DNA of 49,429 bases from Prochlorococcus sp. AG-363-G03 (lineage in GTDB: Bacteria; Cyanobacteriota; Cyanobacteriia; PCC-6307; Cyanobiaceae): positions 1-49,429 of the forward strand of contig QCFJ01000005.1 of the NCBI GenBank assembly GCA_003280265.1, read 5' to 3'. This document shows, one piece after another, positions 1,061-21,725 of this stretch; positions within the stretch are counted from its first letter, which is position 1; each line of letters opens with the position of its first letter. A program made the position numbers and the translations under genes. The notes beneath the pieces were generated by a model, which did no database searches, was not told the origin of the DNA, and saw only the letters and a program-made list of their open reading frames with translations.

Positions 1061-1665
1061 TTATTAGGACCATTCCATCTTTTGATATAATTTAAGTCCT
1101 CACCAAGTGAATCAAACAATCTAACAACAATAAAATCTATTAAATCATCAATAGTTTTTGGGTTTGTATACCATGCTGGAATTGGTGGAACAATTAATGC
1201 ACCTGCAGTAGCTAAACGCTTTATGTTTTCAATATGAATTAAATTTAATGGAGATTCTCTTGGAGAAATAATTAAAGGTCTGTTTTCCTTTAAATGAACA
1301 TCGGCACATCTCTCAATTAAATCTAAAGAAAAACCAGAAGCAATTCTTCCCAATGTTCCCATTGAACATGGAACGATTACCATCCCCTTTGTTTTGTGGC
1401 TTCCGCTTGCAATTGAGGCTGAATGATCATTCCATCTATAACATCTCAAATTTCCTGATTTAACTCTTAATAGATTTCTCCAATAATCTGATTGAGCTTT
1501 TGGCTCTACTGGGATATTAATATTACGTTCACTTTTAGCAACTTCATATGCACCTTTACTGAGTATTAAATCTACAGAGCGATTATTTTCTAACAATAAT
1601 TGAATTGAGCGCTCCCCTATTTGCATAGCAGAAGCTCCTGTGATTGCAATTACAATACTTTTCAT
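1057..1665 (-). CDS. ubiX: UbiX-type flavin prenyltransferase
   Basis: UbiX attaches a dimethylallyl group to FMN to make prenylated FMN, the cofactor of UbiD-type decarboxylases. The 202-residue protein has the expected length and fold signature. The N-terminal FMN-binding strand-loop ITGASAMQIGERS is at about residues 8-20, PCSMGTLGRIASG at about 99-111, the ADVHLKENRPL strand at about 121-131, and the C-terminal PPIPAWYTNP and DFIVVRLFDSLG segments follow. The first loop reads GASAM rather than the common GASGA. It sits between the RNB-fold gene (5-base gap upstream) and the LapA-like gene (4-base overlap downstream), so the three are probably co-transcribed. No UbiD homologue is in this window. 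The family call is strong; the in vivo pathway is inferred. Confidence 0.9.
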   Translation of the reverse strand: MKSIVIAITGASAMQIGERSIQLLLENNRSVDLILSKGAYEVAKSERNINIPVEPKAQSDYWRNLLRVKSGNLRCYRWNDHSASIASGSHKTKGMVIVPCSMGTLGRIASGFSLDLIERCADVHLKENRPLIISPRESPLNLIHIENIKRLATAGALIVPPIPAWYTNPKTIDDLIDFIVVRLFDSLGEDLNYIKRWNGPNK

Positions 1666-1670
1666 TTATT

Positions 1671-3968
1671 TTAATTTTCAGAGTCAGAATCAATACTGAT
1701 GTCATTTTTATTATTTGATTCGTTATCTATGTCCTTCACAAGCTCTAAGTCAATTTGATTTTTTAGGATATCTACTTTTAAAACCCTGATATTTACTTTT
1801 TGACCAAGTTGATATGTCTTTTTGCTCTTCCTTCCGATTAAAAGATTTTGTCTAGATCTATATTCATACCAATCGTCACCAAGAGTACTTACGTGAACTA
1901 AACCTTCTGCTGTTAAATCATCTATTTCAGCAAAAAAACCATAACTTTGTACTCCGGTTATTGTCGCTTCTACCTCTTTTCCGACAATTCCCTGGGCTTC
2001 TCTACCTTGAGCAATTGAAATAAGATTATTTCTAAATGTTTTAGATTTTTTTCTAGTTTCATTTAAATTATGAATTAAACGTAAATTTGAATATTTATTA
2101 ATATTTTCATTAATTTTAGATGATAAGACATCCCAATTTAAATCTTTCCAACTATCTTTTTTTCCTAATTCAATGATCTCCTTACTTCTACTTGATGCTT
2201 TATTTTTACCATCATTTAATAGTGCAGTTAATATAAATTGATTAAATATATTCCAATAATTTAAGGTTGGGCAGCACCAAGGAGATTCAATATTAATTGA
2301 TGTTATCTCAGTATCTAAAGCACTTGTTTCTGCATAAGAATTAGGTTTATAAAGTTTTAAATGAATTCCTGGAATTATATGTTTAAGAAGCTTATGAAGG
2401 ATCTTTTTCTCAGAACTTGGTTCGAAGGATTTTATCAATTCTGATGTTGTAACTGACCCATCAATATTAACGTTTATATTATTATCTAAAGCTAGTGCAG
2501 ATTTAGTTAATTCGTTAATTGCGGATGAATCAATTTCCTCATGCTCTTTATAAATAAATGGTAATTTATACCCTAATAAATGCTTGGCCAAAATATTGTT
2601 AGAGAGCCTAATATATACATCAATAATTGATTGGGGGTCAATACAATTAAATGTTCTTGACCATCCGTGAAAGTCCCTTCCAGGAAATGCTTTATGTAAT
2701 TCATTTAGCCTTTCTAAATGAGGAATTGTTTCGTCTAATTTGATGGATGATTGGTTATTTGAATTGATTTTTTTTGATGTATGTAAAATTGTATAGATAA
2801 CTTCTAGATTATCTTTTATGTTTTTAAGTGCAATTGGAATTGACTTGGATGTCGCTTTTCTATTAACAATAGTTTTTAGGTGTTTTGTCGTAATAATATT
2901 TATTGGCTTAATAATACTGGTACTAAATTTCCAGTCAATTACATGCCCATCACTATTAATATCAACCATTAACGAAATAGCTTCATTTACCTCATTTAGT
3001 TTGAATTTTGAGGCTGATTTTAAAGACTCATTTAGAAAATCAAGCCAATTATTTCCTAAACAAATAATTTCCCCTTTATCTTTAAGAAATTGATCTAGTT
3101 TTCCACCTAAATTAATCCTTTCAGAAACTGTAGGAGAATGAATCCAAATTCTATTACCTCCTTCATTTGGTTGTGCAAATATAGCTGGTAGAGATGGAGC
3201 GTTCTCAGATTCCCAACTTTCAAATAATAATGAAGGTTGAGTAGTTAGGTCTTCTCTTCCTTTTATGGGAATTTTCTTTGGAGCAACCTTTGGAGGACTT
3301 ATTTTTCTAGATATGTTGTTTTTTGAGAGTAATAATTCAATGTCACCTTCTACACCGGCATTAATAGGTAATTCTCTAATTATTGATCCTTTTGCATTAA
3401 ATTGAGCAATTGGATATTTAATTATATTTATTTCATAAATATAATCTTTACTTGGCTCCCTTTTATCTTTTTCATTTTCTAACTCAATAATTACTGGAAT
3501 CCTATCGTCCAAAGGGAATGCCCTCAAGTCCCCAGTAGATTTATCTAATTCAATCTTTGCAAGCAAAGTATCATTATATCTATTTAAAATACATTGGATA
3601 GATCCTTCAGGTGCTCTTCTTTTTACACCTTGTTTTGTAATTGATACAATAACAGAATCACCATGCCAGGCATTATTCAAATTAGCTTCTCTGATGTAAA
3701 TATCTTCACCTTGATCTTCTCTAACAACAAAACAATAGCCCTTACTACTACAGCGGACTCTGCCTTTTATCAAGCCAATATCACTATTAAAAATTAGTTT
3801 ATCATCACTAATAAATTGAACTATACCTAGCTTTGAAAGAGCCTTAATTGCTATGTGTAATTTATCTCTATCAAGTTTTTTGGTAAGCTTTAAAGACTTT
3901 TCTAACTTAGATACTTCTAATCCACCTTCTCTATCAAGACTTTCTAATATTTGAAAAACTGTTGTCAT
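1671..3968 (-). CDS. RNase II/R-fold protein with degenerate catalytic site (probable pseudo-exoribonuclease)
   Basis: The 765-residue product has the RNase R domain order. A winged-helix-like N-terminus is at residues 1-60, a cold-shock domain at about 62-112, an RNB-like body at about 235-600 and an S1 RNA-binding domain at about 661-745. In active enzymes the RNB domain opens with an Asp-rich motif ending in D-x-D-D-A and contains an HxTSPIRRYxDL signature. Here the first region (residues 238-260, GREDLTTQPSLLFESWE then SENAPSL) has no aspartate cluster. The second (about 552-575, DTEITSINIESPWCC then PTLNYWNIF) has lost the arginines. The fold still seems kept, for example IWIHSPTVSERINLGG matching the HIADVxxYV strand. 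I infer an RNA-binding protein without exonuclease activity. Another RNB protein in the window (20442-21725) keeps the signature. The low-complexity acidic C-terminus follows the S1 domain. Confidence 0.8.
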   Translation of the reverse strand: MTTVFQILESLDREGGLEVSKLEKSLKLTKKLDRDKLHIAIKALSKLGIVQFISDDKLIFNSDIGLIKGRVRCSSKGYCFVVREDQGEDIYIREANLNNAWHGDSVIVSITKQGVKRRAPEGSIQCILNRYNDTLLAKIELDKSTGDLRAFPLDDRIPVIIELENEKDKREPSKDYIYEINIIKYPIAQFNAKGSIIRELPINAGVEGDIELLLSKNNISRKISPPKVAPKKIPIKGREDLTTQPSLLFESWESENAPSLPAIFAQPNEGGNRIWIHSPTVSERINLGGKLDQFLKDKGEIICLGNNWLDFLNESLKSASKFKLNEVNEAISLMVDINSDGHVIDWKFSTSIIKPINIITTKHLKTIVNRKATSKSIPIALKNIKDNLEVIYTILHTSKKINSNNQSSIKLDETIPHLERLNELHKAFPGRDFHGWSRTFNCIDPQSIIDVYIRLSNNILAKHLLGYKLPFIYKEHEEIDSSAINELTKSALALDNNINVNIDGSVTTSELIKSFEPSSEKKILHKLLKHIIPGIHLKLYKPNSYAETSALDTEITSINIESPWCCPTLNYWNIFNQFILTALLNDGKNKASSRSKEIIELGKKDSWKDLNWDVLSSKINENINKYSNLRLIHNLNETRKKSKTFRNNLISIAQGREAQGIVGKEVEATITGVQSYGFFAEIDDLTAEGLVHVSTLGDDWYEYRSRQNLLIGRKSKKTYQLGQKVNIRVLKVDILKNQIDLELVKDIDNESNNKNDISIDSDSEN

Positions 3969-8130: not shown

Positions 8131-8310
8131 TCAATCAGAATCCTCCTCTGATGTCTCATCCATAGGATAAACAAACCCTTGTGCTCTACCAGTAAGAACT
8201 GATTTCCCTATAGATAAAGCCTTTTCTGCAGCCACAGCAGCCTTGCCTTTCCAGGTTGCATGTCTTTGGTTTCTCTTTCCTTTAGAGGTTTTTTTCTTAG
8301 GTACCGCCAT
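8131..8310 (-). CDS. rpmF: 50S ribosomal protein L32
   Basis: This is a 59-residue basic protein starting [20 protein letters not shown], the near-invariant bacterial L32 opening. The acidic tail DETSEEDSD closes it. It lacks the zinc-binding cysteines found in some L32 forms. It lies tail to tail with ycf20 (5-base gap) and head to head with the FtsH-like gene, with 171 bases between the two starts that must hold promoters for both. Confidence 0.95.
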
Positions 8311-8481: not shown

Positions 8482-10209
8482 ATGAATAATAGTTATAGTA
8501 AATTATTAAAGGATATTGAAAGTGGTGAGATAGTATCTATTATCCTAATCCCAAATAGAAGAGAGGTTATAGTTGAATTTAGAAATTCAGAGAAGAGGGT
8601 AATTCCAATATTTTACAATGATCAGAAAATTCTCCGGCTATCTGAGGAATATAGTGTTCCACTTACGGTAAAAGATATTAGATCAGAACAGCGTTTAGCT
8701 AGTTTTATTACTGGGCTTGGTCTATCATTAATATTTATTTTATCACTTGCATTTCTAATTAAAAGATCCTCCAAGTTGTTAAATAACATGCAGAGTTTTT
8801 CTCGCCGATCCTCTCAGGTTAAAGAAGATGATATTAGAAATATCACGTTTGATGATGTAGCTGGGTTAAATGAAGAATCTGATGAGTTAAAAGAAATAGT
8901 AACCTTTTTAAAAAATCCAGATAAACTCATTGACCTTGGTGCAAAAGCTCCCAAAGGAGTCTTGTTGGTTGGACCACCCGGTAATGGTAAAACTTTATTA
9001 GCTCGCGCTATAGCAGGAGAAGCCAATGTTCCATTCTTCTCCATTTCTGCATCAGAATTTGTTGAAATGTTTGTTGGTGTTGGAGCTGGAAGAGTCAGAG
9101 ACCTTTTTAAAAGTGCAAAATCAAAATCACCATGCATAATTTTCATTGATGAGATTGACTCAATTGGTCGTCAGAGAGGATCTGGAATCGGAGGAGGGAA
9201 TGATGAAAGAGAACAAACACTTAACCAATTACTAACAGAGTTGGATGGTTTCAAAACTAATAATGGTGTTATTGTCATTGCAGCGACAAATAGGCCTGAT
9301 ATTCTTGATCAAGCCTTAACAAGGCCTGGAAGATTTGACCGTCGTATCGATATTTCACTACCTGATAGGAAAGCTAGGCATAAAATCTTGTCTGTACATG
9401 CAAGAACAAAACCTCTATGTGATTCTGTTAATCTCATGGAATGGGCGACTAGAACTCCCGGTTTTTCAGGAGCTGACCTACAAAATCTTCTAAATGAAGC
9501 TGCAATATATGCCGCAAGAAACAATAAATTAAAAATAAGTTCTATTGATATAGACAAAGCTCTTGAAAAAGCTCGTTTCGGCATATTAGCAAAACCACTT
9601 TCAAATAGTTCGAAGAAAAGACAGATTGCATATCAAATTATTGGCAAAACATTAGTAGCTTTATTAATTCCATCTCAGGATAAATTAGAAAAAATATCAT
9701 TATTTAAGTCACTTGGTGATATGTATGGAATGACTTATTTCACACCCGATGAGGAGACCATAGATAGTGGACTTCTAACACGGCGTTACATTTATAACAA
9801 AATCGTAATTTTACTTGGATCGAGAGCTGCCGAAATTGTTGTTTTTGGATCTAAGGAAGTTACGCAAGGTTCGCAAAGGGATCTAGAGAGTGTGTACTAT
9901 TGGGCTAACCAAATGGTTACAAGATTTGGTTTCTCAGACCTTGGTCCAATTGCTTTTGATTCAGATAAAGATTCAATATTCCTAGGAAAAGATATTTTGA
10001 AAAATATAAAAGAATATTCTCAACATACAAGTAAAGCTATTGACAGAGAAATAATATCCATATCCAAAAAAGCACTAGAAAATGCAATTGATCTGTTATC
10101 AGATAAAGTTAGTTTAATGGATACACTAGTTGATGAACTAATAGTTAATGAAACACTTGAATCTGCATATGTTATAAATTCACTTAACTCCTATCTTTCT
10201 GACAAATAA
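8482..10209 (+). CDS. FtsH-family AAA+ membrane protein lacking the protease zinc site (FtsH-inactive type)
   Basis: The 575-residue protein aligns with FtsH along its length. Residues 1-60 match the exposed N-domain ([18 protein letters not shown]), and one membrane helix lies at about 74-95. Walker A is GPPGNGKT at 164-171, Walker B IIFIDE at 219-224, and the second region of homology [19 protein letters not shown] is at about 270-288. The AAA half looks active. In the peptidase half the expected H-E-A-G-H reads Q-I-I-G-K at 385-389 ([10 protein letters not shown]), removing both zinc histidines and the catalytic glutamate. The usual first membrane helix is also absent: the frame starts directly at the N-domain with stops upstream. 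I infer an ATP-driven unfoldase or chaperone, perhaps a partner of active FtsH subunits, as proposed for plant FtsHi proteins. The gene is intact, so not simple decay. Confidence 0.9.
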
Positions 10210-10229: not shown

Positions 10230-10826
10230 TTAGAGAGCAGAAAAGTATTCTTTGCTTCCTTTAGGGTCTTCTTTCATAGTCTTGTCACCAGGCGTCCAGC
10301 CAGCAGGACAAACCTCGTCTGGGTGAGATTCAACATATTGATATGCTTGTAAAATTCTTAGAGTTTCATCAATATTTCTTCCCACAGGTGCCTTGTTAAT
10401 GGTTGAGTGCATGATGACTCCATTTGGGTTAATTATAAATAAACCCCTATCAGCTTCTCCATCCTCATTTAGTACATTATAAGATTGGCAGATTTCACGC
10501 TTTAAGTCTGATACGAGAGGATAGTTAATATCCCCAATACCTCCTTCATTTCTTGGTGTTTGAATCCAAGCTAGATGAGTAAATTTACTATCAACAGATA
10601 CACCCAAAACTTCTGTGTTCTTACTACTGAAGTCGCTATATCTGTCGCTAAATGCTGTAATTTCAGTGGGACAGACGAATGTGAAATCTAAAGGGTAGAA
10701 AAATAAAACCACATACTTTCCTCTGTACTGAGAAAGAGTAATGTCCTTAAATTCTTGGTCAAAGACTGCAGTAGCAGTAAAATCTGGTGCTTGCATACCT
10801 ACCCTTAGGCACTCATTTGTCGTCAT
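10230..10826 (-). CDS. typical 2-Cys peroxiredoxin
   Basis: This thioredoxin-linked peroxidase reduces H2O2 and organic peroxides. In the 198-residue sequence the peroxidatic cysteine is C52 in [13 protein letters not shown], and the resolving cysteine is C173 in [10 protein letters not shown]. The C-terminal YF motif (KEYFSAL) is the feature linked to peroxide-sensitive, floodgate-type enzymes. Length and motifs match the plastid/cyanobacterial 2-Cys class. It is convergent with the FtsH-like gene (20 bases between stops) and divergent from the next gene, with 68 bases between starts. Confidence 0.95.
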
Positions 10827-20441: not shown

Positions 20442-21725
20442 TTATGTATATGAAGATATAAATTCAAAATAATTTATATCGTTATCATTATTAATTATAT
20501 TTTTAACGGTGAAGCTTAATCCGATATTCAATCTTTTTTTTGTATGTAGATTACATATAGTAGAAAAATGATATTCTATAAAATATAGAATACAAATATT
20601 TTTATATCTATTAATCCAATTTAGCAATATCACATTATATTCCTTAAAAGAGTTATTTTCGAACCATCTATTTAGCCAATATTTTTGATCCTCTCTATAT
20701 CTCATAATATTTTCTCTTCCTTGATTATTAATCTTATGAATAATCTGTTCAACATCTTCTTTAGATATAAGTTCTTTATTATTGAGATACCTATTTAATT
20801 GATAGTTAACTAACAAGTCAGCATATCTTCTAATCGGTGAGGTAGCATGTACGTAAGATTTTAATCCCAAACTTGAGTGAGGCATTGGATTTATCGAATA
20901 ATATGACTTACCCATTGTTTTCTTTAGTAAAAAATTGTATAAAACTTTATTATCCGAACCTTTAATAATATCTTTAGACACCTTCTCAAAACGTTGTTGA
21001 ACCCTATACGGAACTGGTATTCTATTAACTCTAGTAAAATCTGAAATTATATTTCCATACAGAATCATAGCTTCACTAATTAATTGTCTCGATAACGTTG
21101 GATCTATTATCTTAAGTATTGGAATATTATCTTCTACAAAAATCTTTCCATATGATTCCAAAATTTCCGTAGCACCAGATATCCGTCTCCAACATTTTCT
21201 ACTTTGTAAAATCCTAGAAATAATACTTAAATCTTCTTCTTCTTTTGGGGCATAATCAATAAGTTCATCAGCTTCTATATAATTTAACCTGAAGTCTACT
21301 TTAATTATACTCCTAACTATTTCTGTAGAGCCAAGACTACCGTCTTCGTTAAAAATAACACCTAAGCTTATTGATTCTCTCTTTTCTTTATCACTTAGAC
21401 TAAACACCTCATTAATTAATATTTCGGGAAACATATAGTAATTATGAGTTGATAAATAAACAGTAGAAACAAGATTTCTTGCCTTCTCATCAATAGCTGA
21501 TTGATATTCTAAATATGAAGTTGGGGAGGCAATGTGGATCCATATCTTGTACTTAGAAGAGGTCTTTTCTAAGGAAATAGCATCATCTATTTCAAAAGTT
21601 TCATAATCATCTATAGAGTAAGTTTTAAGATAAGTAAGGTCTCTAACTACAGGATTAATATTATTTGATTGTTTAAATCTAGAAATTATGTCATTAACAT
21701 GATTATTTATTATTTTATTGCACAT
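20442..21725 (-). CDS. RNase II-family (RNB) exoribonuclease-like protein
   Basis: The 427-residue protein starts directly at the catalytic domain: RDLTYLKTYSIDDYETFEID then DAIS at residues 28-51, and IWIHIASPTSYLEYQS just after. YVHATSPIRRYADLLVNYQL lies near residue 290. These are the RNB active-site and arginine motifs, so it is probably catalytic. In the D-x-D-D-A motif the first aspartate is glutamate (E45), while D39, D47 and D48 remain. It lacks the N-terminal cold-shock domain, and the C-terminal S1-like part is short and divergent. It resembles the Synechocystis Zam-type proteins. It lies between metG and rpsR in a translation cluster, suggesting RNA turnover or ribosome-linked RNA processing. 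Confidence 0.8.
   Translation of the reverse strand: MCNKIINNHVNDIISRFKQSNNINPVVRDLTYLKTYSIDDYETFEIDDAISLEKTSSKYKIWIHIASPTSYLEYQSAIDEKARNLVSTVYLSTHNYYMFPEILINEVFSLSDKEKRESISLGVIFNEDGSLGSTEIVRSIIKVDFRLNYIEADELIDYAPKEEEDLSIISRILQSRKCWRRISGATEILESYGKIFVEDNIPILKIIDPTLSRQLISEAMILYGNIISDFTRVNRIPVPYRVQQRFEKVSKDIIKGSDNKVLYNFLLKKTMGKSYYSINPMPHSSLGLKSYVHATSPIRRYADLLVNYQLNRYLNNKELISKEDVEQIIHKINNQGRENIMRYREDQKYWLNRWFENNSFKEYNVILLNWINRYKNICILYFIEYHFSTICNLHTKKRLNIGLSFTVKNIINNDNDINYFEFISSYT

Follow-up and report, generated by a model that had tools for sequence, protein, structure and literature searches.

A protease-dead form of the FtsH4 subunit, predicted from sequence, in Prochlorococcus: a conserved AAA+ motor behind a lost zinc site

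Cyanobacterial FtsH subunits are described as belonging to two types. In Synechocystis, FtsH1 and FtsH2 are assigned to type B, their partner FtsH3 to type A (PMC9020784). FtsH1 pairs with the type-A FtsH3 (PMC9020784, PMC11287208) and is part of an essential complex (PMC11287208). Inactivating the protease of a type-B subunit is reported to be harmless to PSII repair, inactivating its ATPase to be harmful (PMC9020784). In Arabidopsis, FtsHi1, 2, 4 and 5 have a motor together with a substituted HEXXH motif, NEAAM in FtsHi2 and REAAV in FtsHi4 (PMC11266112), and so has the protein described here. In picocyanobacteria, FtsH4 has been paired with Synechocystis FtsH1, a link that the authors called 'less obvious' (PMC6300248). 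A study of 2024 ascribed 'cell viability' to Prochlorococcus FtsH4 by analogy with Synechocystis FtsH1 and presumed parallel functions for all four FtsHs (PMC11262661).

An inactive homologue is on record. According to PMC6460958, repeated in PMC8197885, P. marinus SS120 has one FtsHi and the chlorophyll a cyanobacteria have none; the available text of PMC6460958 concerns a single strain and gives neither motif nor FtsH4 identity, distribution or history. The available texts of PMC6300248, PMC11262661 and PMC11287208 discuss Prochlorococcus FtsHs with no mention of an inactive one, and the words 'zinc' and 'inactive' are absent from that of PMC6300248. Our literature search, which covered few subscription papers and no preprints, returned nothing on the spread, the single origin or the FtsH4 identity of a dead FtsH. 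The inactive FtsH of SS120 most likely belongs to the orthologous family treated here.

The window analysed, i.e., the whole stretch of DNA considered, comprises 49,429 nucleotides of contig QCFJ01000005.1 from Prochlorococcus sp. AG-363-G03. The features of the locus are:

8482..10209, plus strand: FtsH4 gene, protease-dead by prediction; ATG start, 575 residues plus stop (open reading frame, Pfam, NCBIfam)
8482..8703, plus strand: N-domain, residues 1-74, beginning at the initiation codon without a first membrane helix
8704..8760, plus strand: single membrane helix, residues 75-93, the sole stretch above the membrane-helix threshold
8812..9585, plus strand: AAA+ motor domain and lid, residues 111-368
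8971..8994, plus strand: Walker A, GPPGNGKT
9070..9078, plus strand: pore-loop motif, FVG
9136..9153, plus strand: Walker B, IIFIDE
9283..9342, plus strand: second region of homology with the sensor-1 Asn and both arginine fingers
9586..10206, plus strand: M41 domain without the proteolytic site (pseudo-protease)
9634..9648, plus strand: QIIGK in place of HEXXH, residues 385-389
9880..9882, plus strand: D467, position of the third zinc ligand, still Asp
8131..8310, minus strand: divergent conserved neighbour, used as orthology marker, named by its sequence as rpmF (ribosomal protein L32); ends set by eye
10230..10826, minus strand: peroxiredoxin-like neighbour, named by sequence

The product is an FtsH by its architecture. 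It has an AAA+ module with Walker A and B, second region of homology and pore motif FVG (Pfam AAA, 1.3e-47), followed by a C-terminal M41 domain (Peptidase_M41, PF01434, 2.4e-38; 132.4 bits against a cut-off of 29.9). The NCBIfam model TIGR01241 (FtsH_fam) matches with 612 bits, just over its cut-off of 600, and the FtsH_ext match of the N-domain stays under the Pfam cut-off (20.1 versus 25.5 bits). Walker A, Walker B and a further 23 residues are all intact; the claim of the sequence-only reading, an FtsH-family frame with Walker A, Walker B and the second region of homology preserved, is confirmed at the level of sequence. What is missing is the complete zinc site, HEXXH plus an Asp ligand: QIIGK is found instead of the motif, aligned with the HEXXH zinc helix of the solved FtsH structures of E. 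coli and T. maritima, and the Asp alone is retained. The replacement of HEAGH by QIIGK at codons 9634-9648, also noted in that reading, is confirmed to the nucleotide, and the motif, protease-dead by sequence, is conserved in the genus. All 29 distinct genomes of the genus that hold the gene read Q[IV]IG[KR] and none HEXXH, which is present in 34 distinct FtsH4 orthologues outside the dead clade and in all 113 other FtsHs examined. As a functional kind the protein is therefore an FtsHi pseudo-protease, an FtsH homologue without HEXXH. We infer that this dead form of FtsH4 is unable to cut peptides. Its nearest relatives are active cyanobacterial FtsH4s, which suggests, from trees of cyanobacterial sequences, an origin independent of the plant FtsHi proteins.

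That the gene is the picocyanobacterial FtsH4 follows from published primers (PMC6300248): both MED4 FtsH4 primers match an NEVGR locus (L141, genus g12) without mismatch, and both MIT9313 primers do the same at an HEIGH locus (L169). Judged by sequence, then, MED4-type genomes have a dead FtsH4 and those of the MIT9313 type an active-looking one. Orthologues were searched for in 300 genomes of the same family (32 by handle) and recognised by identity, by falling into one clade, which includes the FtsH4s of MED4 and MIT9313, and by the divergent rpmF neighbour. The latter is found at 97 of 98 FtsH4 loci, five genomes being represented twice among the 98; the exception, L109, sits on a short contig that also lacks the first codons of the gene.

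The relation to the FtsH classes of other cyanobacteria is less straightforward. The Synechocystis-type FtsH1 (slr1390-type, type B, subunit of the FtsH1/3 heterocomplex) is the remaining class once the other three are assigned, and it is the counterpart of FtsH4 in print (PMC6300248). In an HMM comparison with 17 active FtsH4s as queries (classes of 14 FtsH1-like, 23 of 33 FtsH2-like and 28 of 57 FtsH3-like sequences), the FtsH1-like class, named by elimination and after PMC6300248 without the slr1390 sequence in the comparison, gave the top mean score for N-part, AAA, M41 and the whole protein. Whole proteins averaged 812.8 bits against 722.1, 683.3 and 472.3 for the other classes, the AAA domain only about 6 bits more than the next class (447.3 versus 440.9). 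Dead FtsH4 differs from FtsH1, however, in the lost zinc site, in having no signal-like first stretch and in its position outside that class: in a tree of 211 sequences FtsH4 joins between the FtsH1/FtsH2-like and the FtsH3/FtsH4-like groups. Also, rpmF and the other neighbours of FtsH4 were not conserved at 13 FtsH1-like loci. FtsH4 is probably the counterpart of the type-B FtsH1 of other cyanobacteria, as judged from these scores.

The source genome (G000; 1.21 Mb, 61 contigs, 57% complete) belongs to a genus, g1, that is apparently low-light clade I (NATL2A group). It encodes two further FtsHs, both with HEVGH, and a more distant AAA protein. No FtsH2-type copy turned up in this 57% complete assembly; as FtsH2 is present in the three complete genomes of the genus that were inspected, its absence here probably reflects missing sequence. 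The FtsH4 gene is present in 29 of the 41 genomes of the genus, the source, Prochlorococcus sp. AG-402-B05 and all six single-contig genomes included; one copy (L109, in G024) lacks its first 38 codons. No full FtsH4 was found in the other 12 (G010-G014, G017, G028, G034, G036-G038, G040), which are drafts of at most 90% completeness except one of 97%; one of them has a 160-residue piece. Since a close copy of the peroxiredoxin neighbour was not found in these 12 either (best identities 30-43%, none in G012), we claim no gene loss; assembly gaps are the likely cause, a regional deletion being the other candidate. Outside the genus, G057 and G088 have the peroxiredoxin gene at a contig end.

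Dead FtsH4 occurs in five genera. Apart from g1 with its QIIGK type, g12 (HL-type) has NEVGR, read in 28 of 28 newly inspected loci, and carries the gene in 54 of 61 genomes, one copy being cut short; the seven without it are drafts. In g9 a full copy is found in 10 of 14 genomes and a two-piece copy in one more, with the variants NEIGR, HEIGK, NEAGK, YEIGR, NTIGR, NEVGR and NEIGI. Full copies are present in two of three genomes each of g26 (NEVGK, HEAGR) and g4 (RNASK, QQVGR). A search among phages gave 199 records, 197 at less than 60% identity and two at 60-80%. HEIGH or HEVGH stands at the FtsH4 loci inspected from Synechococcus, Cyanobium, MIT9313 and several further genera. The FtsH4s of MIT9313, marine Synechococcus and Cyanobium share the rpmF neighbour, the clade and the single helix with the dead form, but differ from it in keeping HE[IV]GH and the third-ligand Asp; they are presumably active proteases.

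The sequence-only reading had regarded orthologues with a normal HEXXH as fatal to its claim. Such orthologues do exist, as just listed, yet the trees present the dead site as a derived loss rather than an artefact. A quick tree under a mixture model, made from 51 selected sequences after deletion of the motif columns and with four FtsH1-like sequences as outgroup, gathers all 22 dead representatives into one clade (SH-aLRT 99). A FastTree of MetH and LeuS from 29 genomes, which contains no FtsH, groups the 16 genomes that carry a dead copy (support 1.0); of the 13 genomes outside this clade, 12 have the gene with an intact HEXXH and in one no copy was seen. Since the dead copies form one clade in the former tree and their genomes one in the latter, a single inactivation, in an ancestor shared by much of Prochlorococcus, is likely. 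Several independent inactivations are rejected on the evidence of the gene trees and of the MetH and LeuS tree.

Conservation was counted on distinct sequences, identical ones taken once (87 dead FtsH4, 34 active FtsH4, 113 other; L005 and L098, which come from the same genome, count once). The second His (389) is gone in 87 of 87 dead sequences; the first (385) survives in 5 and the Glu (386) in 55. The order was therefore probably loss of the second His, then, on more than one occasion, of the first, and finally of the Glu, this final step in g1, g4 and a single genome of g9. It is likely that the zinc site drifted after the inactivation while the motor residues stayed fixed. Sites that lack only the second His, HEAGR in L130 and HEIGK in L143, L182, L186 and L187, are possible natural steps of inactivation. 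Residues 227 and 464 (9160-9162 and 9871-9873) are Ser in 84 of 87 dead FtsH4s and Ala in at least 95% of the active FtsHs; on the aligned sequences these are shared derived changes of the dead clade.

The N-terminus differs from that of a common FtsH in that helices on both sides of the N-domain are not found. There is one helix, in the active orthologues too, and the frame starts directly at the N-domain, as the earlier reading had it; only residues 75-93 pass the threshold. No first helix can be hidden upstream, for the open frame extends only 7 codons above the ATG (582 residues) and rpmF lies upstream of it on the opposite strand. One or two membrane helices are permitted for FtsH, and mature thylakoid FtsH of Arabidopsis may likewise have a single one (PMC9020784). 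A hydrophobic stretch before the N-domain is absent in 97 of 98 FtsH4 sequences, active ones included, and the one exception has it a long way upstream, where the open frame is not necessarily translated. Applied to the other FtsHs, this rule finds such a stretch in 105 of 113, and all 8 without it belong to the FtsH1-like class. The presence of the single helix in active FtsH4s refutes a joint origin of this topology and the dead protease; the helix is probably older than the dead site. The further suggestion that a single helix places the N-domain differently found no support: from the difference in charge across the helix the ordinary topology, N-out/C-in, is predicted for all 87 dead and all 34 active FtsH4s (121 distinct sequences). 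Being common to active orthologues and having this charge pattern, the single helix by itself predicts no misplaced N-domain. Some FtsH1-like proteins of other cyanobacteria (L015, L019, L031, L032, L053) have N-termini that, by eye, resemble a cleavable signal peptide with ends like PALAQ more than a strong first membrane helix; the helix-less FtsH4 may have arisen by way of such an N-terminus.

The motor residues K170, T171, D223, E224, N270, R284, F197 and G199 are invariant in all 87 dead sequences, and V198 and R287 are kept in 86. In active FtsHs 128 AAA positions reach a conservation of at least 95%, and the dead clade retains 110 of these at 90% or more; the corresponding M41 figures are 32 and 19. 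Among the 13 M41 positions lost (379, 385, 386, 389, 390, 409, 410, 446, 447, 463, 464, 467, 500) are the four with a zinc or catalytic role, without exception, and the adjoining A390, G463 and A464. Pairwise dN/dS, a rough estimate here with several high dS values, is 0.042-0.156 in AAA, 0.109-0.203 in M41 and 0.074-0.281 in the N-part for nine pairs of dead FtsH4. Six active FtsH4 pairs gave 0.014-0.030 in AAA and 0.022-0.183 in M41 (one M41 value saturated), six paralogue pairs 0.000-0.025 and 0.006-0.035. Dead FtsH4 is under clear purifying selection that is less strict than in its relatives, the motor included.

The reading that we favour, at a probability of about 0.5, is that dead FtsH4 would be a motor subunit without protease in mixed hexamers with the active type-A FtsH2. 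Its zinc site would have been destroyed once, in an ancestor, leaving a subunit unable to cut peptides. The subunit would still bind and hydrolyse ATP and pull substrates by its intact pore loop. It would make up half of the ring, the other half being the type-A FtsH2 with HEAGH; the latter would cut, and FtsH4 would supply motor strokes, ring geometry and targeting. The fixed motor residues, the purifying selection, the FtsH1-like score and the type-B precedent argue for this arrangement. By analogy, dead FtsH4 conforms to the type-B pattern, i.e., protease lost, ATPase residues kept and HEAGH on the type-A side, where it is found in 30 of 30 picocyanobacterial type-A sequences among those listed, not all of them from genomes with dead FtsH4. 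The precedent, however, stems from the PSII-repair subunits, not from FtsH1. Against the mixed ring stand the position of FtsH4 outside the FtsH1-like class, the neighbours not conserved there, the faster evolution of dead FtsH4, motor included, and a source genome in which no FtsH2 was found, presumably because of a gap. Nor do transcript data from MED4 single out FtsH4: FtsH1, 2 and 3 are said to have balanced shares of the pool, and FtsH4 is not named as a large part of it in the available text (PMC6300248).

The earlier proposal of a dedicated unfoldase that possibly mixes with active FtsH thus stands in its second half, the partner role being plausible; the dedicated homohexamer is a somewhat less likely rival, and on balance we doubt it. 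It would be a membrane-anchored unfoldase or extractor without proteolysis, like the import motor built from chloroplast FtsHi. The complete motor, the absence of proteolytic residues from an M41 domain that is still recognised, and the protein translocation by plant FtsHi complexes (PMC9020784, PMC11266112) speak for it. The class that scored closest, however, forms mixed hexamers in Synechocystis. In its boldest version, which we consider rather unlikely, an essential FtsH subunit would have been turned wholesale into a non-cutting membrane motor in a major marine lineage. This motor would form a ring of its own, extracting or translocating membrane proteins but leaving them undegraded, and would be the equivalent, in a free-living bacterium, of the FtsHi motor of chloroplasts.

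Slow decay in reduced genomes, where cutting became dispensable and the rest now drifts, is improbable as a full account. Partial decay is possible, because dead FtsH4 evolves faster than most active pairs and the paralogues, in the motor as well: its dN/dS mostly exceeds that of active FtsH4 and always that of the three paralogues in AAA and M41. The zinc site is still drifting, with 17 motif types among 87 sequences, and 12 of 41 genomes of the source genus are without a full copy, though all but one of these are at most 90% complete. The most divergent dead FtsH4, L151 (genome G043, 1501-3171, genus g4; RNASK), sits on a branch of 1.6, with a program warning that its placement in the 51-sequence tree is unsure; with GSPG as Walker A and Lys as second arginine finger its motor may be failing. 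Yet dN/dS is far below 1, the residues of the ATP site and pore do not vary even between distant genera, and the gene persists in 54 of 61 HL-type genomes, the remaining seven being drafts, and in all six single-contig genomes of the source genus.

Far less probable still is that dead FtsH4 has a different chemistry for cutting peptides, or that its altered site takes up some other metal. Of the 87 dead sequences 68 retain D467, and 86 have a basic residue, Lys or Arg, in place of the second His; one idea is that this residue pairs with D467 in place of zinc. In the source genus, however, both His and the catalytic Glu are lost, and the altered site differs between genera. A sequencing or assembly error at 9634-9648, conceivable in a fragmented draft of 57% completeness, is ruled out for practical purposes by the agreement of all 29 gene-holding genomes of the genus, six of which are single-contig.

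The analogy with Synechocystis FtsH1 needs reworking if FtsH4 is indeed unable to cut in MED4 and its relatives. MIT9313, with its active-looking copy, and the related MED4, with its dead one, would then provide a natural test of the need for a protease in both subunit types of a mixed FtsH ring.

The window contains what looks like a second pseudo-enzyme. An RNase R/II-like protein with OB_RNB, RNB and S1 domains is encoded at 1674-3968 on the minus strand, and the stretch aligned to the Asp-rich RNB stretch of the solved RNase R contains no Asp. In a shorter RNB protein (20445-21725, minus strand) the DD-rich stretch is, by eye, apparently kept.
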